From Pseudanabaena biceps PCC 7429 (GTDB taxonomy: Bacteria; Cyanobacteriota; Cyanobacteriia; Pseudanabaenales; Pseudanabaenaceae), in the NCBI RefSeq assembly GCF_000332215.1, contig NZ_ALWB01000025.1, positions 1-34,474 on the forward strand: a stretch of 34,474 nt of DNA, given 5' to 3'. The notes beneath the pieces were generated by a model. That model was not told where the DNA came from and searched no databases. It saw only the letters and a program-made list of their open reading frames with translations. Both the position numbers and the translations under genes were made by a program. The stretch's first letter is position 1, and every line of letters begins with the position of its first letter. Shown piece by piece: positions 3,393 through 28,873 of the stretch.

Positions 3393-3456
3393 ATCTTTTA
3401 TTGATAGAATCCTGTCATTGATGATCGCGTTTAGATTTGCATTTAGATCTACAGAT

Positions 3457-4656
3457 ATGAATACTCAAGAATTCTCACCTGTAAATACGACTTCTGAGAA
3501 CTTTTATGCCGATCTACCCGTTCTTCAAAATTTTGCCGATATTACCTACAGTGCAAACTTTTCCGACATTCCCAATGACTGGGCCGTAATTATCACCGAT
3601 GTCACGGAATCAACTAAAGCGATCGCTGAAGGTAAGTATAAAGATGTCAATCTCTTAGGAGCCTGCTCCATAATTGTCATTCTGAATATAGTCGGGGATT
3701 TAGAGATTCCCTTTGTATTTGGTGGCGATGGCGCTTCAATTCTGATTCCAAACAAGTTTATTAATGAAGCAGAACAATCCTTGCTAGCGGTGCAAAAATT
3801 AGCCAGCGATGAATTTAAGCTTAGCTTACGTGTAGGTATTGTCCCTCTCACTGCCATTACCTCAAACTACGACATTAAAATTGCCAAACTCCGAATTTCA
3901 GAAAACTATAACCAAGCAATTCTCAGAGGCGGCGGCATCAGCTATGCCACGCGCTTAGTGAAGGATGCCGCTACTACGGATTTATACAGCCCTAAAGCGA
4001 TTAATGCCTATGCGATCGCGGATTTCTCTGGCTTAGAATGCCGTTGGCAGGATATCCCCACCCGCCATGACGAGATTCTAAGTCTGATCGTCATGGCGAC
4101 CGCACCCAGTCAAAGTCAAATCGATCTGCTCTATCGCGAAATTATTAACCAGATCGATCGCATTTACGGACAGGGAGCGGAATGCCATCCCGCCATCTCC
4201 ACCAATTTAGCCCTTGGCTTTGAGGACAAAAATTTATTGTCAGAGACTAGGGTTTTCACCGCCACCCAAAGTTGGCTAGCGAAATGGTTTTATCTATGGA
4301 AAATCCGCCTAATTAACCTATTAGGGACGATTCTGATGAATTCTAGGATCAGGGTTAGAGGATTTAATTGGGGAGACTACAAGAAGATTGTTTCCGAATC
4401 AACGGACTTCAAAAAGTTTGATGATGTGTTACGAATGGTCATTTCTGGCAGAATCAAACAACGTCAAACACTCATGAATTACCTAGACAAAAAGTTTCGC
4501 GAAGGTCGTTTAGTCTACGGATTTCATGTTTCCGATCGGGCTTTAATGACTTGTTTGGTGTTTGAACGGGATGGTCGTCAAGTGCATTTTATTGATGGAG
4601 CCGATGGTGGCTATGCCTTAGCTGCAAAAAAGATGAAAGAACTAATGAAAAGTTAA
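3457..4656 (+). CDS. DUF3095 domain-containing protein
   Basis: This soluble protein of about 399 aa belongs to DUF3095, a family of unknown function. Diagnostic stretches are the N-terminal FYADLPVLQNFADIT, then WAVIITDVTESTKAIAEGKY with KDVN, and PFVFGGDGASILIP. The order Asp-x-x-x-Ser-Thr, then Gly-Gly-Asp-Gly recalls the metal and substrate regions of class III nucleotide cyclases. That link is my inference, not a known activity. The start is set at the ATG at 3457, close to where the conserved domain begins; an ATG at 3421 (or TTG at 3418) would add 12-13 residues. The stop TAA is the first triplet of a repeat element that begins at 4654. Confidence 0.82.
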   Translation: MNTQEFSPVNTTSENFYADLPVLQNFADITYSANFSDIPNDWAVIITDVTESTKAIAEGKYKDVNLLGACSIIVILNIVGDLEIPFVFGGDGASILIPNKFINEAEQSLLAVQKLASDEFKLSLRVGIVPLTAITSNYDIKIAKLRISENYNQAILRGGGISYATRLVKDAATTDLYSPKAINAYAIADFSGLECRWQDIPTRHDEILSLIVMATAPSQSQIDLLYREIINQIDRIYGQGAECHPAISTNLALGFEDKNLLSETRVFTATQSWLAKWFYLWKIRLINLLGTILMNSRIRVRGFNWGDYKKIVSESTDFKKFDDVLRMVISGRIKQRQTLMNYLDKKFREGRLVYGFHVSDRALMTCLVFERDGRQVHFIDGADGGYALAAKKMKELMKS

Positions 4657-4758
4657 GTAGCTAGGCATAAGTAAACTTAAAACCTAGAAGAGCATACCGC
4701 ATGCGCAGCGTGCAGTATGCTCTCTGGTTTTGGTTTTTAATTATGCCGAACTACTTAG
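4654..4758. repeat. Family A MITE-like element, 105 bp
   Basis: The element runs from TAAGTAGCTAGGCATAA to its imperfect inverted counterpart ending ACTACTTA. It has a central hairpin at 4690-4722 (15-bp stem with two G-U type pairs, loop GCA). Its first triplet is the stop codon of the DUF3095 gene. Its left end carries stops in all three frames (TAA, TAG and TAG at offsets 0, 4 and 8). Confidence 0.8.
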
Positions 4759-9021: not shown

Positions 9022-9124
9022 TAAGTAAGTGGGCTTAATTAAATATAAAACCTAAAACCTGCGGCGCGTGCGCCGCGTACGCCGCAGGTTTTAGCTCTGG
9101 ATTTTAACTATGCTGAGGTACTTA
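9022..9124. repeat. Family A element, subtype with CCTGCGGCG core
   Basis: The element runs from TAAGTAAGTGGGCTTAATTA to a terminal TATGCTGAGGTACTTA. Its hairpin outer stem, CTAAAACCTGCGGCG (9052-9066), pairs with 9080-9094. The copy at 17135-17238 shares nearly every base of both arms. The outer ends belong to family A, but the core stem differs from the GAGC(A/G)TACCGCC cores elsewhere. It lies between the ABC ATPase and the gamma-carbonic anhydrase gene. Confidence 0.75.
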
Positions 9125-10126: not shown

Positions 10127-11665
10127 TTAATTAAGGATTAAATTCACTAAAGTTCGCACTGCAAAACCCGTGCCGCCAGCATTGTTATAACCCGAATCGC
10201 GCTCAGTCCAGACTGGACCTGCCACATCAAGATGCGCCCATGCCTTAGTTGTTTCCACAAATTGCTTCAGGAACAAAGCCCCCGTAATTGCTCCGCCCGC
10301 CCGCGAACCAGTGTTTTTAAAATCAGCCACGACCGATTTTAATTGATCGAAATAGGGAGCTTCGAGGGGCATCCGCCATAATTTCTCGCCAGCATCCCGA
10401 GCAGCTTTAGCGATCGCCTCTGCCCAGCTATCATCAATCGACCACATTCCCCCAATATCTTCGCCCAGTGCCACCACACAAGCCCCTGTTAGCGTAGCAA
10501 GATCAACGATCGCATCGACCCCAAGGCGATCGGCATAGACGAGAGCATCGGCTAGCGTTAAGCGTCCTTCGGCATCGGTATTATTCACTTCAATGGTTTT
10601 ACCATTAGAGGCCGTGAGGATATCGCCTGGACGCATGGCACTGCCATTGACCATATTTTCGCAGGACGCGACGATAAAATGCACCTCGATGTTTGTGGGC
10701 TGGAGATGGGCGATCGCTTTCGCTGCACCGAGGGCTGCTGCCGAGCCACCCATATCGGTTTTCATCAGTTCGATACTGCTGCCCACACCAGTTTTAATAT
10801 TTAAACCACCCGAATCAAAGGTCAATCCCTTCCCGACGATCGCTAATTTGCGCTTGGGCTCGCCATGACGGTAAGTGAGGTGGATGAACTTGGGAGGAAT
10901 ATCAGAAGCTCTAGCTACGCCAAGAAAGGCTCCCATCCCTAAGGCTTCACAGTCAGCCTGTTCCAAAATTTTGACAGTGAAAAAATCTGACTCCTTCGCG
11001 ATCGCAATGGCAGTATCAGCCAAGGTAATCGGAGTCACAATATTTGCAGGAGCCGATACTAATTCCCGCGCCAAAATTACCCCATCAACAATTTGCTGCG
11101 CCTTCGCGATCGCAGGGCTTGCCATATCGGGATCGGTTTCTAAAATTTCCACCTGCTCCAGAAAACTGGGATTGGTATTTTTAGACTTAAATCGCTTGTC
11201 TTGATGGGCCGCTAGTAATACGCCCTCAGCGATCGCTTGAGCCGTCACCGTAACGTCTTGATTGTAATTCGGGAAGGATAATGCGAGCTTTTTCACCTTC
11301 TCCTTATTTGCCCATTTCACAGCTATTGCCGCCGATTTACGCCAAACATCAGCATTAGCTTGAGCGGGATCGCCCATACCAATCAAAATCACCTTGCGAA
11401 TAGCATAGTCAATCCCCACACGACCGCTAACCGAAACCCCACTCTCCCCTAGAAATTCAGATTCGGCGATCAAATCCGTTAAAGTGCAACCCAGAACCTG
11501 AATATCTAATTTTTTTAATACTTCAGATAGTTCAAGCGCTTTTTTTACAGAATTTTCTGACTGCTCGTGCGGATCATGACTGGCTTTGGGGCTTGAAAAA
11601 ACTGCGATCGCAAGAGCATCTCCATGCCACGCCTGCGGAACAGTTAATAAAGGAAGGATATTCAT
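10127..11665 (-). CDS. pepA: Leucyl aminopeptidase (M17 family)
   Basis: The 512-aa enzyme removes N-terminal residues, preferably leucine, from peptides in the cytoplasm, using two metal ions. The N-terminal macro-like domain covers about residues 1-170. The catalytic domain has the full M17 set: K279 and D284 in [14 protein letters not shown] with K291, D304 in [11 protein letters not shown], and D364, E366 and R368 in [17 protein letters not shown]. Length and end fit the family. The gene is single, read towards the gamma-carbonic anhydrase gene, and separated from it by a cluster of hairpins. No strong ribosome site precedes the ATG, but no other start fits. Confidence 0.96.
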
Positions 11666-11913: not shown

Positions 11914-12017
11914 TAAGTAGCTAGGCAGAATCAAAAACCAAAATCGAAGAGCATACCGCCCGCTGCGCGGGCGGTATGCTCTTCTGGGTTTTAAGTTTAC
12001 TTATGCCGAACTACTTA
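11914..12017. repeat. Family A MITE-like element, 104 bp
   Basis: It starts TAAGTAGCTAGGCAGAA, contains a perfect 18-bp hairpin (11946-11984, loop TGC) and ends TTATGCCGAACTACTTA. The TAG stop of the minus-strand REC-PP2C gene (12020-12022) lies 2 bases from its right end. The left end has stops in all three frames. Confidence 0.8.
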
Positions 12018-12019
12018 GC

Positions 12020-13156
12020 CTAAAGAAAATCAATTGTTAACAAGGAAACATCGTCATCAAAATTAGCTTGGGGAGTAGTAACACGAATCTGCTGTAGTAC
12101 TTGGTCAGCATTAACTTCCTCCCCCTTCGAGAATTTACTAATCAGAAAGTCAAAAAATTTAATCGTCCCCCATTTTTTACCATTATCTTGATGAACCTCG
12201 AAAATTCCATCACTAAAGATATAGAGCTTACTATCTAGAGGTATGGATATTTCCGAACTCATATAATGAATGGCGGGAAAAAAGCCTAAAGGCATATCTA
12301 AGCTAGGAAGTTTTTGGATCTGGGGACTCTGGGGATCGCCTGAGAGTAAAATTCCATGGGGATGCCCTGCATTAGCATAGGTTAACTTACGTTGCGATCG
12401 ATTAAAAACGCCATACCACATTGTGAAATATCGCCCATTATGCTGACTCATCTGAAAGGCGCGATTAAGTTCCGTCAAAATCGTACTTGGTTTATAAAAG
12501 GCATCTTTGCCAAAAGATTGCGATCGCAAAAGATTTAAGATCGAAATCGACAGCAAAGCCGCTCCAATCCCATGCCCTGAGGTATCGAGCAAATAGATAG
12601 CAAGATGATCGGAATCTAGCCAGTAAAAATCGTAACAATCGCCTCCCAACTGACTAGAAGGGATAAATTCGGCGAAGATGTTTACGGAACCTTCCAGAGC
12701 TTTTGGTAAAAGGGACTTGATGTAATCGCTTGCCTCTGCTATCTCCGCCTCTAACAATTGCTTTTGCTGCTGCAAATCTTGATTGAGCTGATAAATACGT
12801 AAACCCGCCCTAACGCTAGCAAGTAATTCAGTTTTGTCGATGGGTTTAGAGAGAAAGTCATCAGCACCATTATCCAGGGCCCGAACTTTATCCTCCACAG
12901 CTCCTTTAGAAGTCAATAAGATAAAAAATGTTGAAGATAGCTTTGGTTCCAGCCTAATCTGACGGCATACTTCTAAACCATCTATTTCTGGCATCATCCA
13001 ATCACAAACGATAAGGGCAGGTTGATGCTGTTGGGCTAGTAATATTCCTTCTTGACCATTTTTACCTACAATCACCTTATACCCATATCCTTGCAGAGTA
13101 TTCTTAAGAATCATCTGCATGACCAAATCGTCGTCAATTACTAGAATTTGCAGCAT
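12020..13156 (-). CDS. Response regulator with PP2C/SpoIIE-type phosphatase domain (RsbU-like)
   Basis: A receiver domain drives a serine phosphatase. In the REC domain the acidic pair sits in VIDDD, the phospho-acceptor Asp in IVCDWMMPEIDG, the Thr/Ser in LLTSK and the Lys in FLSKPID. A coiled linker (about residues 120-150, QDLQQQKQLLEAEIAEA) leads to the SpoIIE/PP2C domain. There the metal-binding aspartates are in GGDCYDFYWLD, LLDTSGHGIGAALLS and the C-terminal DDDVSLLTIDFL. Such proteins dephosphorylate anti-anti-sigma STAS proteins in partner switching. The start at 13156 (MLQILVIDDD) fits the family; a GTG at 13174 is possible. It is divergent from an anti-sigma-like ATPase gene, a likely functional partner. 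The STAS protein is not in the window. Confidence 0.9.
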   Translation of the reverse strand: MLQILVIDDDLVMQMILKNTLQGYGYKVIVGKNGQEGILLAQQHQPALIVCDWMMPEIDGLEVCRQIRLEPKLSSTFFILLTSKGAVEDKVRALDNGADDFLSKPIDKTELLASVRAGLRIYQLNQDLQQQKQLLEAEIAEASDYIKSLLPKALEGSVNIFAEFIPSSQLGGDCYDFYWLDSDHLAIYLLDTSGHGIGAALLSISILNLLRSQSFGKDAFYKPSTILTELNRAFQMSQHNGRYFTMWYGVFNRSQRKLTYANAGHPHGILLSGDPQSPQIQKLPSLDMPLGFFPAIHYMSSEISIPLDSKLYIFSDGIFEVHQDNGKKWGTIKFFDFLISKFSKGEEVNADQVLQQIRVTTPQANFDDDVSLLTIDFL

Positions 13157-13551
13157 TCTGTTTGCTTGAATCACGATATGTAGTTAGATTTATAGTAGTT
13201 CTAAATTGTTGGTAAGTGACAAATCCACCCAAAATCACTAGATTTTGTATTATAAAAAACTAATTATTATCACACTTTATCGAATTAGTATAAATTAGAA
13301 TAGTAATTAAACAATAAGACTGTTTCATAGATTATTCCATTTAAACCCAATTTCTGTAGTTTTAAATATGCAATAATGCATCATCTACTAAGCTGCTAAG
13401 CATACATAACCTTCAAATCTAGAATTGTACTCCCCCCAACCCAAGGGCAGTACAAACTATATTTTTGATTTTCAACGATGCTGAACTACTTAAAAATTGC
13501 TAAATATTTAAGAATACATTCAACCTCAAAGTATATATGGGCAAAATGTAA
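13157..13551. other. AT-rich divergent promoter region with a decayed family A copy
   Basis: The region between the REC-PP2C gene and the anti-sigma gene is AT-rich and carries no gene. At 13388-13492 it contains a diverged family A element. This starts TAAGCTGCTAAGCATA and ends GATGCTGAACTACTTA, and its core TTGTACT...AGTACAA is partly palindromic around a C-rich centre. I see no clear promoter boxes, though both genes must be transcribed from here. Confidence 0.5.
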
Positions 13552-13974
13552 GTGTCTCAACCGATCTCATTGCAAGTCACTACTAATCTGAATGAACTCG
13601 TTCAAGTTTTGAATTGGTTCGACAATATCGATCATGGTTCTGTTCCAAATATTGATTGGTTAATGTGTAAAACTGCGCTTGCAGAAATATTTACTAATGC
13701 CGTACGCCATGCCCATAAGAATCTACCACCCGAGACTCCGATTACTTTAGAGGCAAGTTTGACAGAAGAGACTATCGAAATTAAGGTTTTTGATTATGGG
13801 GAAGTTTTTGACCTTGCCACAAAACTCGAAAAAATGGTAGAAGCCGATATTAATGCCACAGGCGGTCGAGGATTACATCTTATTAATCAGGTGGTTGATA
13901 GTTTTACCTGTCATCAAACCGCAGATGGGCGTAATTATATACAGATCAGAAAAAAATATCTATCCACAAGATAA
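13552..13974 (+). CDS. Anti-sigma regulatory factor, RsbW-type ATPase
   Basis: A 140-aa single-domain GHKL/HATPase_c_2 protein. The N-box is ALAEIFTNAVRHAH (about residue 44-57), the G1 box FDYGE and the G2 box ATGGRGLHLINQVVD. Proteins of this size and type bind sigma factors or STAS domains and phosphorylate STAS serines. The divergent neighbour is the matching RsbU-like phosphatase, which supports a partner-switching role. The start is GTG at 13552 without a good ribosome site; no upstream ATG is in frame. The stop TAA (13972-13974) coincides with a TAAATAGCTAGG sequence that looks like a family A repeat end. Confidence 0.88.
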   Translation: MSQPISLQVTTNLNELVQVLNWFDNIDHGSVPNIDWLMCKTALAEIFTNAVRHAHKNLPPETPITLEASLTEETIEIKVFDYGEVFDLATKLEKMVEADINATGGRGLHLINQVVDSFTCHQTADGRNYIQIRKKYLSTR

Positions 13975-13997
13975 ATAGCTAGGACAAATCAAAACCC

Positions 13998-14038
13998 CAA
14001 AGATGAGTGGCGGCGCAAAGCGCCGCCACTCATCTTTG
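13998..14038. terminator. 19-bp perfect hairpin between convergent genes, followed by TTTTT
   Basis: CAAAGATGAGTGGCGGCGC (13998-14016) pairs perfectly with 14020-14038 around an AAA loop. TTTTTCTAT follows on the plus strand, so it should terminate the anti-sigma gene. On the other side it lies just past the stop of the hybrid kinase (14044). The stem is the same repeat as at 678-710. Confidence 0.75.
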
Positions 14039-14043
14039 TTTTT

Positions 14044-16596
14044 CTATATTTTTCTTATATACGTAACTGCCGCCCTAATCCTTTCTAAAAGCAGCCCAGT
14101 ATCCTTGGCAAGATGACCAGTTTTTCCAGCTTCTTCCAAAGTTTTAGCCAGCTTCGCTACCCCAAGAATACCCAAAGCGACACTGGTTCCTTTAATAAAA
14201 TGTGCCTCGTATTCAATCCCAATGTAATTGACCTGCGAAATTGCGATCGCTAATGCATCTAGATGCTCAGGTAACGAATCAATATAGGCTTGCAAAAGCT
14301 CTTGGCGAAAAAGAGGGTTACCGTTACATACTTCATCGAGATATTGCCAATCTACCTTGAGATCGGCTTCCAAATCAGCTTTTAAGTCATTGTCCAGATC
14401 ACTTTTTACATCGATTGTGACAGAATTTCGATCAGGATGATTAACAAGATGATTAACAACTGGCTCTTCCAGATGACAACTTTCACGCATCTGATACCAA
14501 TAGGCTAGTTTTTTGGCTAAATCTTGCTTGCGAACGGGCTTACTCAGAAAATCATCCATACCCGCAGCTATACAGCGATCGCGATCGGCTTTCATCGCAT
14601 TAGCCGTGAGAGCAATGATCGCTACACCCGCCCCAGCCAAATTTTGACTTGCCTCACGCTCACGAATTCGACGACTAGTGACATAACCATCCATAACAGG
14701 CATTTGACAGTCCATGAGAATGATACTGTAGGAAATTTTATCGAGGATATCCAGAGCTTCTTGACCGTTTGCCACCACATCAACTCGATAGCCTAAATTA
14801 TGAAGTTGATTGATGGTTACCTTCTGATTGATCGGACTATCTTCAACCAATAGGATTTTTAGCTGGGATGGTAATTTAACTTCTTCAGCCATAAATTCTG
14901 GAGGTTGATCGATCAGTTTTGCGCTTTTACCTGAAATCGTATTAATAAGGCTATTCAACAAACGAAGCTTACGAACGGGTTTCCGAAGATAATCCGCAAA
15001 GCCAATTTCCAACATCCGACTAGCCGCTCCATTCTGGTCAAGAGAAGTAAGCATAATGAGATGAGTATCCCGCAAGATGGGCGAACTTTTAATCTGTGTA
15101 CCCAATTGCTCTCCATCAAGGTCGGGCATTTGCATATCTAATAAAGCAAACTGATAGGGCTGACCAATCGCGATCGCACGATGGAGAGCATCAATCGCCT
15201 CAGTAGATTGAATCAGGATGTCAACCTGCATTTTCCAAGATTTTAACTGATGGTAAAGAATATTGCAGTTGGTCACGCTATCATCTACAACTAAGACCCT
15301 TAAGTCTTGAAGAGCGCTAACCGCAAGTGGATAACTCCCCTCTTCCGATTGCTTTTGAAATGGAACCGTAAACCAAAAAGTTGAGCCTTTATTCTCTTCA
15401 CTCTCTACATAGATACTTCCGCCCATTAACCGAACTAATTGCTTGCAGATGGCTAATCCTAAGCCTGTGCCTCCATATTGTCTAGTTGTCGAAGCATCAA
15501 CTTGAATAAAAGGCTCAAACAATTTCGACTGCGCCTCTAGGGAAATCCCAATTCCCGTATCGATCACCGAAAAACTCAAGGAAACAGTAGTTAGATCTTC
15601 CTTAGCGATCGCAACTTCGATGGTCACTTCTCCTTGACGCGTAAATTTAATGGCATTGTTCGTCAAATTTAATAAAACTTGGCGTAATCGACCAATATCT
15701 CCTTTCAGGTATTTAGGAACATCAGGATGAATAAATAGAGCCAGATCCAAGCCCTTACTATGGGCAGAACCAGCTAAAATGTCGGCGACCTCTTCAATGC
15801 TTGATTCGAGCTCAAAATCCAACTCCTCTAGCTGCATCTCACGGGCTTCTAACTTTGAGAAATCCAGAATTTCATTGATCAGGTTTAACAAATGCTCGCC
15901 GCTATTGTGGATGGTATTCGCGAAATCTTGCTGCCTTGGATCTAAATCAGTTTCGAGCAACAGTCCTGTCATCCCGATCACCGCATTCATCGGTGTCCGA
16001 ATTTCATGACTCATCGTAGCCAGAAAACTACTTTTAGCCTGATTAGAAGCTTCCGCAATTTGCTTAGCTATTTCTAAAACTTGATTTTGCTCATGTAAAA
16101 GCTCGTTCGCTTCCCTTAACTCCTGAGTTCTTTGATCTACTCTCTGCTCCAATTCTAAGTTTGCTTGCTGAAGTAGAATCTGATTACGTTCTTTTTCCGT
16201 AATATCATCAATCGCGACCACAATACTGATCTCTTTACAATAATCGCTATCAATTTCCACGTAGGTAGCGGTAATTTCGAGAATAGCGACTTTGTCGCCA
16301 TTGTAAACATCATATTTATTAACAACCTTACTCTTTTGAGCGATCGCTAAAGTAACGGGATGACTCTCTGGAGAGAGCATAACCCCATCACAATACAGTG
16401 GTAAAAGAGAGAATATCTCCTTACCAATCACCATAATATGAGGTCGATTAACGAGAAGATCGAAGGATTTGTTACACCACTGAATCCTTCCTTGAGTATC
16501 AGTCCAGACGATCGCATTGTCTACCGCACCTAAAGCAACCTCCATTTTTCCAAGAATTGATCGCAGTTCTTGAATTTGAGATGGGATATGATTCAT
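14044..16596 (-). CDS. Hybrid sensor histidine kinase PAS-HisKA-HATPase-REC-REC-HPt
   Basis: An 850-aa multi-step phosphorelay kinase with no membrane segment. In order: PAS domain (about 15-135), coiled coil (138-185), HisKA with H197 in [13 protein letters not shown], HATPase (about 295-412; N-box [13 protein letters not shown]1 VIDTGIGI, G2 [10 protein letters not shown]). Then come REC1 with D487 in [15 protein letters not shown]2 with D629 in [11 protein letters not shown], an acidic linker of DL repeats, and an HPt domain with H799 in [12 protein letters not shown]. All phospho-relay residues are present. The core is closely similar to the larger kinase at 17611-22056. A small PAS protein gene lies 30 bases upstream in the same direction and is probably co-transcribed. 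The output regulator is not evident. Confidence 0.94.
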
Positions 16597-17134: not shown

Positions 17135-17238
17135 TAAGTAAATGGGCTTAATTAAATATAAAACCCTAAAACCTGCGGCGCACGCGCAGCGTACGCCGCA
17201 GGTTTTAGATCTGGATTTTAATTATGCTGAAGTACTTA
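17135..17238. repeat. Family A element, CCTGCGGCG subtype
   Basis: It runs from TAAGTAAATGGGCTTAATTA to TATGCTGAAGTACTTA, with a 20-bp stem (17166-17185 with 17189-17208, one G-U type pair, loop GCA). It is the close twin of the copy at 9022-9124. Confidence 0.78.
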
Positions 17239-17610
17239 TAACAAGTATTACACTTTTATAGCCAACTGGAAATTCTATATTTCGGTCACATAGCTATCGG
17301 CAATTTTATTAGTATACATCTCCCGCAGAGGAGGATGGTGGCGCAAAGCACCACCATCCTCCTCTGCGGGAGAGATGATTTTTGTCCTGAGACAAATGGC
17401 AATATAGCATTCCTAAATGATTTCTGAGAAAAATAGGGGTTTAACTTTATACAAAATTATACCAAAGCTCAAAATGACGTAGCCATTTTGAGCTTTGAAA
17501 ACCCTTAGTGGGTTTGGTTTTTAATTCACAAAAGTGTTGTCACACTTTCGTGAATTGGTATTAAGAAATGGCTACGCCATTTCTTAACTTGGTATTACAG
17601 GGCTATAAAT
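17239..17610. repeat. Gene-free repeat cluster upstream of the PAS gene
   Basis: This stretch contains a 26-bp stem-loop at 17319-17373 (one G-U type pair, loop AAA), followed by ATTTTTGTCCTGAGA as in the arm of the family C element. It also has a complete family B element at 17459-17561 and a second partial family B hairpin at 17561-17595. No coding frame or promoter could be recognised. Confidence 0.65.
17459..17561 (-). repeat. Family B MITE-like element, 103 bp, minus orientation
   Basis: Read on the minus strand, the element starts ATACCAATTCACGAAAGTG and ends in a hairpin (17463-17497) and TTTGGTAT. It is flanked by TAA on both sides in that orientation. It matches the elements at 22137-22239 and 25217-25319 in length and ends. 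The sequence next to it (17561-17595) is the hairpin end of another copy. Confidence 0.8.
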
Positions 17611-20600
17611 TTAAATTAGACCCTCAATCTGCTTAATTCCTTGCAAAATCTTTTCAAATATAGGGATAGCTTGGTCAGGAATTTGTCCTTGATGACTTTG
17701 AGATTCTAAGGAATCTGCAAGTTTAGCAATTCCATTAAAGCCTAAAGCAGTACTTGCCCCCTTAATAAGATGAGACTCGCGCTCAACTTCAAGATATTGA
17801 TGATTGACTATCGCTACTTTGAGTAAATGTAAATGCTCTGACAAAGAACTAACATAGGTTTCCAAGAGCTGCTTCCTAAAATCAGCATTACTATTAGATA
17901 TTTCCTCTAGATAACACCAATCAATCTCTAATTCACTAATATTAACATCGGGAATATTAACATCGGGAATATTAGCATCGGGAATATTAGCATCGATCAC
18001 AATTTCCACGGGACTTACATTTACAGGCAAACTATGAACGGAGTTATAGACACTCGCTAAATCATCATCCTGAGACGTAATAGGAATAACTTGACTCCAA
18101 TAGGAGATCATTGCCGCGAGTTCTTCCTTTCGTAAAGGTTTGCTGAGATAGTCATCCATTCCTGCGGCTAAACAGCGATCGCGATCGTCTTTCATCGCAT
18201 TGGCGGTCAAAGCAATAATAACTATTGGTCTGCGCTCATCTGCCTTAGATTCCAAATCACGAAGTTTTCTCGTTGTGACATATCCATCCAGTATGGGCAT
18301 CTGGCAATCCATCAGAATCATGTCATAGTGAATCTGCTCGACTAGCTCGAGAACTTCCTTGCCATTCCCCACCACATCAGCACTATAGCCCAAATTAAGG
18401 AGTTGGTTAATTGCAACTTTTTGGTTGATCGGGCTATCTTCGGCTACCAAAATTTTTAATTTAGAAGTAACAATGGGATCGAGGCTTTGATTATCATCTT
18501 TGCTGGGAACGATGGCAAGATCTGGAGGAAGCCCTTTAATGGAATTAATGATACTATTCAACAATCTAATCTTTTTGACTGGCTTACGGAGGTAATGGGC
18601 GAAACCAATATCTAGTAACCTTTTAACCTCATCAGTCCGATCAAGAGAACTAAGCATAATTAAATGGGTATTTTTTAGAATCGGTGATTCCTTAATTTGC
18701 TTACCCAAGCTTTCCCCATCGAGATCGGGCATTTGCATATCTAGTATCACAAGCTGATAAGGATCGCCAATATTAACTGCATGGATGAGATGGGACATTG
18801 CATCCATCGGATATTCAGTTATATCAACTCGCATATCCCAAGCACTCAGTTGATACTTGAGAATGCGGCAATTGGTAGAACTATCATCCACCACCAGTAC
18901 TCGCATTCCTTGCAAAGATGGCAAGTCATAGTTATCAGAAGGACAATTGGATTGCTTTTTAAAAAGAAGTTCAAAACTAAAGGTCGAGCCAAAATTTTCT
19001 TGACTCTCCAAATAAATTTTGCCGCCCATCAGCTCCACTATTTGCTTGCAAATGGCAAGTCCTAACCCCGTCCCTCCATAATGGCGGGTTGTCGATGCAT
19101 CCACTTGAGTGAAAGGTTGAAATAGTTTCGACTGTTCCCCCTTAGGAATACCAATGCCTGTATCAATTACGGCAAAACGTAGCGTGGCTTCGCTGTCATT
19201 TTCAGCAATTAGACTAACTTCAATCGTTATTTCTCCATGAATTGTAAATTTAATCGCATTATTGACTAAATTTAGTAAAACCTGACGTAATCTCCCCACA
19301 TCACCCTGTATACATTTGGGAACATCAGTATGGATAAAGGTAACTATCTCTAGTTCCTTACTCTGAGCAAAGGGGGCTAAAATTTCTGCTACCTCTTCAA
19401 TACTAATTTCCAGATCAAAGTCAAGGTTTTCTAGGAGCATTTCCCCAGCTTCCAACTTAGAAAAGTCCAGAATTTCATTGATGAGATTTAACAAGTGATC
19501 ACCACTACAACGAATCGTCTGGGCAAAGTCCCGCTGTTGATCGTTTAAAGTGGTATCCAGCAATAGTCCCGTCATCCCAATCACCGCATTCATGGGCGTA
19601 CGAATCTCATGACTCATCATCGCCAAAAAGGAGCTTTTAGCGATCGCAGCTTGCTCAGCATCGGCGCGTGCGATCTCTAAAGCAATATTCTGCTCTTGCA
19701 ATAGTTTGAGTTGTTTCTTCTCTTGAGCAAGCAATCGGGACTGAGCGATCGCAATCCCAATTTGATCGGCAAGTTGACTTAGCAAACTAATTTCAAAGGA
19801 TTCCCAATGTCTAGGTGACACACAGTGGTGAGCGATCAATAATCCCCATAGTTCCTCATTTTCAATAATCGGCACCACGAGATTAGCTTGTACCTGAAAT
19901 CTTGCCAAGAGTTGCTTATGACATTCGCTCAAATCAGAATCTTCTACGTGATCGATCGCCGATTTCTTTCCCTCTTTATAGGCTTGCCATTCTCCTGCTT
20001 GGAAACAAGTATCTTGTATATCTTGATTGAGCGAAGATATCCATTTAGGATCGACCGATTCCACCTCTACAGTTCCACTCCAATCATTATAAAAGCGATA
20101 GATAATAACACGATCGGTCTTCAGAAAATTGCGAATTTCCTTAACGGCGGTATTCAAAATTTCTGGGAGATCTAGGGATTGACGAATGCGAAGAGCAATA
20201 TCGGAAAGGAGCATCGATCGCCAGTTCTGTTTATGAAGTTCCCTCTCTATTTTGCGTTTCTCCATAAATTGCCCCATTTGCCTACCTATGGCGGCAATAA
20301 AGTTCATCAGTTCCAGATTCGACTGTTGGTACTGACGACTAAACATCGTAATTATGGCTAAAGTTGATTTATGTTCCCCTTGGATCGGGAAACTAAAGGC
20401 ATAGTTTAAACCTAAATTCTTGACAGCTTCGGAATTGCGAAAAGTGGGATATTCATCAATTTTAATCCACTTAGCTGCCCCCTCTGCCCAAACCGAACCG
20501 ATTAATCCCGTCCCATATTCAATGGACATTAATTGATGCGTTTGAATTAATTCTGTCGCATTAATTTCAGGTCTAGCATAGCCCACCATTAATTGTAAAG

Positions 20601-22088: not shown

Positions 22089-22138
22089 AAAAAACTAAAT
22101 TAAAAAACTAAATTAAAAAACTAAATTAAAAAACTAAT
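22089..22138. repeat. 13-bp tandem repeat (3.8 copies) upstream of the large kinase
   Basis: The unit AAAAAACTAAATT occurs three times perfectly (22089, 22102 and 22115) and once partially up to 22138. There it runs into the start of a family B element. It lies 33 bases upstream of the kinase ATG at 22056, in its presumed leader or promoter. Confidence 0.85.
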
Positions 22139-22239
22139 ACCAATTCACGAAAGTGTGACAACAATTTTATGAATAACAAAACAAGTCCAGTAAGGGTTTT
22201 CACAGCTCAAAATAGCTACGCCATTTTGAGCTGTGGTAT
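22137..22239 (+). repeat. Family B MITE-like element, 103 bp
   Basis: The element starts ATACCAATTCACGAAAGTG and ends GCTGTGGTAT. Its 3' half is a hairpin (22201-22235, CACAGCTCAAAAT stem, CTACG region at the apex). TAA flanks it on both sides (CTAA before TACC, TAA after GGTA). It lies in the upstream region of the large kinase. Confidence 0.8.
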
Positions 22240-22393
22240 AAAACAACATTCAAGCGATCAAGATCTAAAAATATCGGAAAATATAAGCCGCACTGAAGTA
22301 TATTATCGCTCCAAGTAGTTCAGAGTAGTTCGGCATAGTTAAAAACAAAAATGAGTGGCGGTGCAAAGCGCCGCCACTCAGAGTCTTGGAGTT
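22240..22393. repeat. Spacer with partial family A arm and hairpin 22352-22380
   Basis: The left arm AGTAGTTCGGCATAGTTAAAAA (22326 onwards) belongs to family A. It is followed by a 13-bp stem with one G-U type pair, TGAGTGGCGGTGC, and an AAA loop. The right arm of family A is missing. The hairpin lies just past the stop codon of the MocR gene and may terminate it. Confidence 0.6.
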
Positions 22394-24058: not shown

Positions 24059-24298
24059 ATGAGAGTCTCTTTTATTCCCGATAATCTATGGAATGCTTTG
24101 AGTAAATCCTTCCAAAATTTATTTGAAACATTTTTTCATTACAGTTTTTGTTACAATGAAGAAGTCCAAGTTTGGCAAAAGTGCGATCGCCACGGCAATA
24201 CCTACTGGTATGTTTACGATCCGAAGACAGGACATTCGGCTCACTTAGGTTCGGAAGAAGAAGTGATGAGTTGGATTGAAAGTCACTATTATTTCTAA
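24059..24298 (+). CDS. Small hypothetical protein, 79 aa
   Basis: A small soluble protein I do not recognise. It has an amphipathic N-terminal half (DNLWNALSKSFQNLFETFF) and a C-terminal half rich in aromatic residues with VWQKCDRHGNTYWYVYDP and EEEVMSWIES. The latter looks like a small beta-hairpin domain as seen in short cyanobacterial conserved proteins. It is divergent from the MocR regulator with the operator-like sites in between, so it is the first candidate for MocR control. The ATG at 24059 has no evident ribosome site. The stop TAA (24296-24298) is the first triplet of a family A repeat. A minus-strand frame of similar length overlaps it but looks less protein-like. Confidence 0.65.
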   Translation: MRVSFIPDNLWNALSKSFQNLFETFFHYSFCYNEEVQVWQKCDRHGNTYWYVYDPKTGHSAHLGSEEEVMSWIESHYYF

Positions 24299-24400
24299 GT
24301 AGTTCAGCATAACTAAAAACCAAAACCAGAAGAGCGTACCGCCCGCTAAGCGGGCGGTACGCTCTTCTAGGTTTTAAGTTTACGTATGCTTAGCTACTTA
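24296..24400. repeat. Family A MITE-like element, 105 bp, complete
   Basis: The left end is TAAGTAGTTCAGCATAACTA and the right end TATGCTTAGCTACTTA. A perfect 19-bp hairpin lies in the centre (24328-24346 with 24350-24368, loop TAA). Both ends supply stop codons to neighbouring genes: TAA for the 79-aa gene, and the TAA at offset 8 of the right end for the exonuclease gene on the minus strand. Confidence 0.85.
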
Positions 24401-25160
24401 ATTTTTCAGCTAAATCCTCAACACCTTTACGTTGGTATAGATTGACCTGTCGATGGCGCGAGAATCTCGATTTGATCGTCGTCGCTGCCACTAAATCCTC
24501 GGCTTCATTTACAGAAATCTGTAAAATCATGGCAATATCTTCGATCGAAAGCCATTGATGCCCAAACAGATTTAAAATTTCATCGTCATCCGCATTAAGA
24601 ATTTGAGAAAATAGTTTCTCTAAAAGCAACCAACAGGCGATCGCATCTGACTCGGCCCGATGAGACTTACCGACATCAAATCCATAATGCTTCACTAACT
24701 TAGGTAGCGATCGCGATGGCAAATGGGGTAGTAATAGTCTGGAGAGCATCACAGTACAAAGCTGAATGGGAGCGCGATAATCAATACCTAATCGATAGTA
24801 TTCCGCCTTCAAAAATGAGTAGTCAAACCCAATATTATGGGCGGTAAGCACGCCAGTTTGTAACATGGGAAGGTATTCAGGCAAAATGCGATCGCTACTA
24901 TCAACATTACTCACCATCTGTTGCGAGATTCCCGTAAACTTAACTATTTGTTCAGGAATCTCTATCTGAGGATTGATGAGGTCGGTCGAGATTTGCTGAA
25001 TGCCATCTTTAAGGGTTGCTTGCAGAACGGAAATCTCAATAATGCGATCGCGATCGCTATTTCCTCCCGTAGTTTCTAAATCAACTACTGTAAATATTTC
25101 TGTACTGAGATGGCGATAGTAAGTGAGGATGTCAGTAGAGCGATTGGCATTAATTTTCAT
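24390..25160 (-). CDS. DnaQ-like 3'-5' exonuclease (DEDDh)
   Basis: A 256-aa exonuclease of the DNA polymerase III epsilon/RNase T superfamily. Exo I is TVVDLETTGG (D27, E29), Exo II is LTAHNIGFDYSFL (D113), and Exo III is SHRAESDAIA (H167, D172), so all DEDDh catalytic residues are present. The C-terminal 70 residues include an LSIEDIAMILQISVNEAEDL helix pair like a small helix-turn-helix. Whether it proofreads for a polymerase or trims other nucleic acids cannot be told. The last three codons and the stop (TTA AGT AGC TAA) come from the end of the family A element, so the original C-terminus was probably different. Confidence 0.88.
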   Translation of the reverse strand: MKINANRSTDILTYYRHLSTEIFTVVDLETTGGNSDRDRIIEISVLQATLKDGIQQISTDLINPQIEIPEQIVKFTGISQQMVSNVDSSDRILPEYLPMLQTGVLTAHNIGFDYSFLKAEYYRLGIDYRAPIQLCTVMLSRLLLPHLPSRSLPKLVKHYGFDVGKSHRAESDAIACWLLLEKLFSQILNADDDEILNLFGHQWLSIEDIAMILQISVNEAEDLVAATTIKSRFSRHRQVNLYQRKGVEDLAEKLSS

Positions 25161-25196
25161 CAGTTTTAATTTAAATTAATTTGAATTATTTGGAAT

Positions 25197-25404
25197 TATG
25201 TAGTTTGGCATAAGTAATACCAATTCACGAAAGTGAGCCAACACTTAAATGAATTAAAAAGCAAACTCCATAAGGTTTTGAGATTCCAAAAATGGCGTTG
25301 CCATTTTTGGAATTGGTATAAAAACCAAAACCAGAGAGCGTATCGCCCACTACGCGGGCGGTACGCTCGTCTAGGTTTTAAGTTTACTTATGCTTAGCTA
25401 CTTA
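25197..25404. repeat. Family A element split by a family B element (nested)
   Basis: A family A left end (TATGTAGTTTGGCATAAG) is interrupted at TAA by a 101-bp family B core plus a repeated TAA. It then continues AAACCAAAACCAGAGAGCG through the hairpin to TATGCTTAGCTACTTA. The 208 bases equal 104 + 101 + 3. Nearly identical 22-base sequences (25181-25202 and 25407-25428, one mismatch) flank the composite. Confidence 0.82.
25217..25319 (+). repeat. Family B MITE-like element, 103 bp, inserted in family A
   Basis: It begins ATACCAATTCACGAAAGTG, ends GGAATTGGTAT, and has a perfect 14-bp hairpin near the right end (ATTCCAAAAATGGC, loop GTT). TAA is present before TACC and after GGTA. The uninterrupted family A sequence at 24306 has one TAA at this point. 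Confidence 0.85.
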
Positions 25405-28443: not shown

Positions 28444-28873
28444 TCTTCACGATTCTTTTGATTAGTCGATGTTAATTATAGCTAACAAAGCCCAAAGAGA
28501 GAGGCAGCCCAAAGCGCCGCCTCTATATATATTGAAGATTACGAAAATTCTCATTGCAAATCATTTCGATAATGCGGTTAGTAAGTTTGCCGTGCGGATT
28601 TTGCTAAACTACTAAGTAGCTAAGTAAGTAGCTAAGCATAAGTAAACTTAAAACCTAGAAGAGCGTACCGCCCGCTACGCGGGCAGTACGCTCTCTGGTT
28701 TTAGTTTTTAATTATGCTTAACTGCTTAACTAGTTTGGCAAGGTTAAAATCCAAAACCAAAGCATAGGTCGTCTGCTGCGTCAGAAGCCCATACTTCAGG
28801 TTTTTTAGTTTACTCATGCTTAGCTACTTACAATCTGAATATTTCTTAACACTCTTTTTTCCAAAAATTCCCA
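28444..28873. repeat. Gene-free region with two tandem family A elements upstream of pheT
   Basis: After a degenerate hairpin near 28490-28515 there is a doubled left end (TAAGTAG at 28613 and 28625). A 104-bp family A element follows at 28625-28728 (16-bp stem 28660-28694, loop TAC, one mismatch). A second, more diverged one runs from about 28729 to 28830 and ends TCATGCTTAGCTACTTA. The pheT start follows 44 bases later. I see no leader peptide or T-box. Confidence 0.75.

Follow-up and report, generated by a model that had tools for sequence, protein, structure and literature searches.

Why do neighbouring genes in a cyanobacterial genome end inside copies of one and the same short repeat? 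The question is raised by a 34,474-nt stretch of Pseudanabaena biceps PCC 7429 (hereafter the window, analysed as a whole), in which the gene for a DUF3095 protein, a gene for a 79-aa protein and an exonuclease gene were noted, from the sequence alone, to have their stops inside MITE-like elements termed family A. All three of these stops are indeed located there. The sequence-only reading offered two explanations, namely that selection gives disrupted reading frames a clean end, or that stop regions are a preferred target. The evidence set out below points to a different answer. Family A is very probably a non-autonomous MITE of the IS630/Tc1-mariner type, which inserts at TA and in doing so rebuilds TAA and TAG stop codons as TAA.

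The MITE reading itself proved right. Family A elements are short (modal length 104 nt), non-coding and multi-copy, with inverted ends flanking a GC-rich hairpin and a terminal inverted repeat of the form TAAGTAG[CT]TA[AG][AG]CA... (Left end TAAGTAGCTAGG; right-end consensus TAAGTAGTTCGG.) The ends had been described as inverse copies with stops in all three frames. They are inverted, but they are not equal, as the right-end consensus lacks the stop at offset 8. A motif search of the window for TAAGTAGCTA found it at every position at which an intact end had been reported (4654, 11914, 24400 (minus), 25404 (minus), 28625 and 28830 (minus)), and additionally at 28613. When up to one mismatch was allowed there were 14 matches in the window against 1.6 expected, and at least 14 were reached in 0 of 100 shuffles. 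Across the source genome (5.47 Mb in 464 contigs), ends with at most two mismatches numbered 867, compared with 4 for a reversed control pattern. A profile search recovered 257 elements in 1.63 Mb and 300 in 2.02 Mb, these element counts covering 37% of the genome (~2.0 Mb sampled). Sites of the GCGATCGC type, suggestive of a cyanobacterium, are also present in the sequence of the window.

Full-length copies in the window lie at 4654..4757 (+; 104 nt; HMM 109 bits, with a 24-genome orthologue comparison), 11914..12017 (-; 100.8 bits), 24296..24400 (-; 105 nt; 102.6 bits and sequence), and 28625..28728 (+; 103.1 bits). The copy at 11914..12017 has the start side of a peptidase M17 gene (10127-11665, -) on one flank and on the other the end of a response regulator/SpoIIE gene (12020-13174, -), whose stop is just beyond the element, while two genes both end inside the copy at 24296..24400. 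A further copy at 25196..25404 (-) is interrupted at about 25212-25319 by a nested repeat from a different family (partial HMM match 25319-25404; sequence; repeat families D11 and D17). This nested sequence is a ~107-nt AATACCAATTC repeat, with further copies at 17457-17563 and 22135-22241. A diverged family A element at 28727..28830 (-; 51.6 bits) abuts the copy at 28625..28728, and the two have one TA in common (28727-28728). The latter copy is preceded by a 12-bp tandem end copy at 28613-28624; TAAGTAGCTAAG is doubled at the left end in two independent copies, here at 28613-28634 and in another stretch (L012) near 1488-1516. Diverged relatives are found at 9022..9124 (+; 56.5 bits), 13389..13492 (+; 52.9 bits) and 17135..17238 (+; 64.4 bits). 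What had been taken for a degenerate family A end at 13972 belongs to another repeat family, as the family HMM has no match there. At 13972-14043 the stop TAA (at 13972) of an anti-sigma-type (HATPase_c_2) gene opens a TAAATAGCTAGGACAAATC... repeat with a GGCGGCGC hairpin. Elsewhere in the window, coding stretches of ~300 nt in neighbouring large genes (15613-15912 and 19216-19515) are 72% identical, which suggests an old gene duplication.

How a gene can come to end inside such an element without loss to its protein follows from the target and the first base of the element. Family A inserts at TA and duplicates it. With an inserted body that begins AGTAG..., the left duplicated TA plus the first base always reads TAA. 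Where the target TA opens a TAA or TAG stop, that stop becomes TAA, the protein is kept exactly, and the former third base of the stop (A or G) ends up on the far side of the element. A filled site and its empty counterpart agree with this. At the end of a 688-aa gene elsewhere in the same genome (L163), with the sister genome as the empty site, the empty sequence reads CCACAATTCGAG, TAG, CAATC, and the filled one CCACAATTCGAG, then TA AGTAG...CTACT TA, then G and TAATC. The duplicated target is TA, the old TAG has become TAA, and its G is left beyond the element. This is the one clean pair among the sampled stretches of the two closest genomes, as these have most copies in common and their contigs are broken at repeats.

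Comparison with orthologues that lack the element supports the same picture. The DUF3095 gene (3418-4656) has its rebuilt stop TAA at 4654..4656 (+), at offset 0 of the element, and position 4758, directly after the element, holds the G left over from the former TAG. The C-terminal residue occupies an identical position in 24 of 24 genomes of the genus, with TAG, TAA or TGA as the stop; only the source genome and its sister carry the element, both with TAA, and most others have TAG. The 79-aa gene (24059-24298) has its rebuilt stop at 24296..24298 (+), and in the three orthologues that lack the element the protein stops at this residue as well (...SHYYF), with TAG. This comparison had been put forward as a check on where genes without the element end; for these two genes the reading frame was not disrupted, whereas orthologues of the exonuclease end later. 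UreC, with an element at its stop, retains the C-terminus ...PMAQRYFLF, as in solved ureases, and 22 of 22 orthologues in the genus align through the last residue. For class III alcohol dehydrogenase, adenine phosphoribosyltransferase and FtsY, which also have elements at their stops, the alignments reach to within a few residues of the ends. The next base beyond the element offers a test without circularity. If a stop codon was the target, an A or G must follow, and one did so in all 15 full elements at stops, compared with 13 of 33 downstream controls, i.e. elements just 3′ of genes (p=6e-5). TAG accounted for 10 of these 15 stop targets (p=0.011), an apparent excess most of which is accounted for by the base preference beside TA (expected share 0.48, p=0.20).

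That the elements terminate neighbouring genes, as first read, holds for a minority of copies. A gene ends inside 27 of 300 elements (~9% of copies in 2.02 Mb, with gene calls from our own codon-usage gene finder), in most cases at the first TAA: 21 of the 27 stops lie at offset 0, one at offset 4, four at offset 8 and one at offset 14. None of the profile-found elements lies inside a gene as called by this finder. Insertions within genes are presumably purged by selection, so that copies build up in intergenic positions, at stop codons and, in rare cases, a few codons short of a gene end. In this last case the AT-rich end supplies the stop in whichever frame comes next (offset 4, 8 or 14). 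The RNase_T-type exonuclease (gene 24390-25160) is one of the few genes really changed by an element. Its stop TAA at 24390..24392 (-) sits at offset 8 of the end at 24400, and its variable C-terminal tail is shortened by about 1-4 residues, its orthologues ending one to four residues later or having a longer variable tail. Around the exonuclease orthologues (L064, L065, L066 and L072), other hairpin repeats start exactly at the stop codon in several relatives, for example TAG followed by a AAAGTGGCGGCGC hairpin, or TAAAATTGATGG...CCATCAATTTTA. Insertion at stop codons may extend to further repeat families of the genus.

The enzyme that could move family A was sought among the transposases of the genus. 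Elements of the Tc1/mariner/IS630 group insert at TA with duplication of the TA (PMC2170065), and a domain search for DDE_3 transposases across the genus led to IS630-type elements with ends TAAGTAG[CT]TA. L202 (1075 bp) has TAAGTAGTTAGACAAAATTAATTACA at both ends and one ORF of 348 aa, and L196 (1183 bp), with an ORF of 362 aa, is bounded by the ends TAAGTAGCTATGC and TAAGTAGCTAAGC, each ORF encoding a DDE_3 transposase; a single end of this type lies beside a transposase at L197, L206, L213, L217 and L221. L196 and L202 share with family A the terminal bases TAAGTAG[CT]TA, followed in most ends by A/G, A/G and CA. They differ from it in being longer than 1 kb, in encoding a transposase of ~350 aa, in their internal sequence and in being absent from the source genome; past its ends, the inner sequence of family A does not resemble the IS630 elements. 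Judged by sequence, the ends of family A match those of complete IS630-type elements of the same genus, with TA as the duplicated target. In L196 and L202 the transposase frame stops within the right terminal repeat (...YVINFV or ...YVINFA, then TAA/TAG), and so end sequence and C-terminus are constrained together. The matching transposase occurs in four genomes (G006, G011, G017 and G019), in multiple copies in G017 and G019, with 0 matches of this clade in the source genome (G000) and its nearest sister (G004), and none of the three DDE_3 loci in the source genome has a matching pair of ends. The mobilising element has therefore been lost from the source genome or is unassembled there. An autonomous partner often accompanies an IS630-derived MITE in its genome, but need not do so. 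An IS630 element of the source genome (L127, at C30) was rejected as a partner, as on inspection it has ends of its own (TACAGCC...) and the adjoining family A end lies outside it. Family A would have been moved by an IS630-type transposase acting in trans, and an element of the L196/L202 kind is the likely source.

With transposase ends of this kind in hand, other accounts of the ends and the hairpin can be weighed. Were the three-frame stops the product of selection for closing disrupted reading frames cleanly, which we regard as very improbable, they should be a constant feature of the ends. Among 110 full copies hardly any end lacks the TAA at offset 0, but left ends have a stop at offset 4 in 88% of cases and at offset 8 in 69%, and right ends in 71% and 17%, so that the offset-8 stop is missing from 31% and 83%, respectively. 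Stops in all three frames within 11 nt are a feature of 60% of left ends but of 12% of right ends. Every frame is stopped within 17 nt in most ends (80% left, 66% right) and six gene ends do use the stop at offset 4, 8 or 14, as such selection would have it, but the non-stop G at position 4 is as conserved as the stop triplets (100% and 92%), one of the two outcomes that the sequence-only reading had named as refuting its idea. Moreover, the left end of L196 lacks the third stop, and with no element found inside a gene there is nothing to disrupt; in the typical case the insertion point is the TA of the former stop, and the protein stays unchanged. The end pattern fits a conserved transposase end and argues against selection for three stops, and the stop triplets would be a by-product of an end conserved for transposase binding rather than a device evolved to close frames. 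A still more remote idea, that family A is a REP-like palindrome moved by a RAYT (Y1) transposase, could appeal to the GTAG at positions 4-7 of the end and to the strong palindrome. Palindromes of that kind are single, however, and the paired inverted ends identical to those of IS630 elements, the TA duplication and the length of ~104 nt speak against it. It is also unlikely, if less so than either of these, that elements are kept at gene ends because the hairpin serves as a transcription terminator or mRNA stabiliser. The RNA folds of four sequences are strong (-50 to -64 kcal/mol, z -9 to -12) and U-rich runs follow the hairpin on both strands, but a long hairpin already follows from the inverted-repeat structure, and full copies show no enrichment between convergent genes (5, with 13 expected), while divergent pairs have somewhat more of them than expected (46 against 33).

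Whether stop codons are also preferred as targets is a separate matter. A first test for enrichment at stop TAs, in 0.83 Mb, was not significant. The TA of a stop codon was occupied in 21 of 1303 cases, compared with 55 of 8114 TAs in the next 100 nt (odds ratio about 2.4, p=0.001), and a held-out sample of 0.39 Mb gave an odds ratio of 3.0 (p=0.054). A stop in use shields the TAA of that end from decay and thereby inflates the count, and the count was therefore repeated with decayed ends extrapolated. The excess was then 1.44 over all copies (p=0.13), 1.79 for nearly complete copies (p=0.044) and 2.8 for the best-preserved copies (p=0.009). Stop-codon TAs may be occupied 1.4-2.9 times more than nearby TAs, a borderline excess that plain insertion at TA would not predict. 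The proposed target preference for stop regions thus receives weak support from this excess; the target is simply TA, and the local sequence context around TA does not favour stops (weight ratio 0.77-0.86). An attraction of the transposase or its complex to stop codons, or to the 3′ ends of genes, seems improbable, a little more so than a role for the hairpin. The raw counts and the best-preserved copies are in its favour, but the correction for decayed ends lowers the excess over all copies, the local context predicts none, and an insertion that is less harmful at the stop than further downstream would equally give one. Somewhat less doubtful, though still tentative, is the broader idea that stop codons are a genuinely preferred site of landing or retention, by about two- to threefold over neighbouring TAs, in that the rebuilt TAA hides the insertion from the protein and adds a 3′ hairpin. 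If this were true, TAG stops throughout the genome would steadily give way, through mobile DNA, to TAA stops with structured 3′ ends.

As a TA-inserting MITE of the IS630 type, family A can be set beside elements known from other bacteria. In the available parts of PMC2229807 and PMC3049150, the pneumococcal repeat unit RUP is 107 bp long, with IS630-Spn1 proposed as its mobiliser, and family A works like RUP, a likeness in properties alone. RUP differs in host and in end sequence and is over-represented between convergent genes (PMC3049150), which family A is not. RUP also shares its genome with its IS630 element, while the assembly with family A contains no such partner. ISY100 of Synechocystis inserts almost exclusively at TA, with TA duplication, in vitro (PMC2170065). 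It resembles family A in being cyanobacterial, of the IS630/Tc1-mariner type and targeted to TA, and differs as an autonomous element of 947 bp, family A being non-autonomous. Nezha, described as an active cyanobacterial MITE (Zhou 2008, cited in the accessible part of PMC10969869), is similar to family A by that description alone. Rebuilding of stop codons goes unmentioned in the available portions of the RUP papers (PMC2229807, PMC3049150) and of the MITE review (PMC10969869). No account of it for IS630 elements was found in the open literature, the coverage of which was partial, and this is no proof that it is undescribed.

The rule that emerges is simple and checkable, in that a TA-specific element whose body has A (or G) as its first base restores whichever TAA or TAG stop it hits. 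It follows that part of the apparent link between MITEs and the 3′ ends of genes can arise without any stop-codon function in the element. Gene ends rebuilt by such elements do not warrant annotation as truncations. A very abundant MITE family of the genus is now tied, through its ends, to a candidate clade of transposases, which would make its movement testable.
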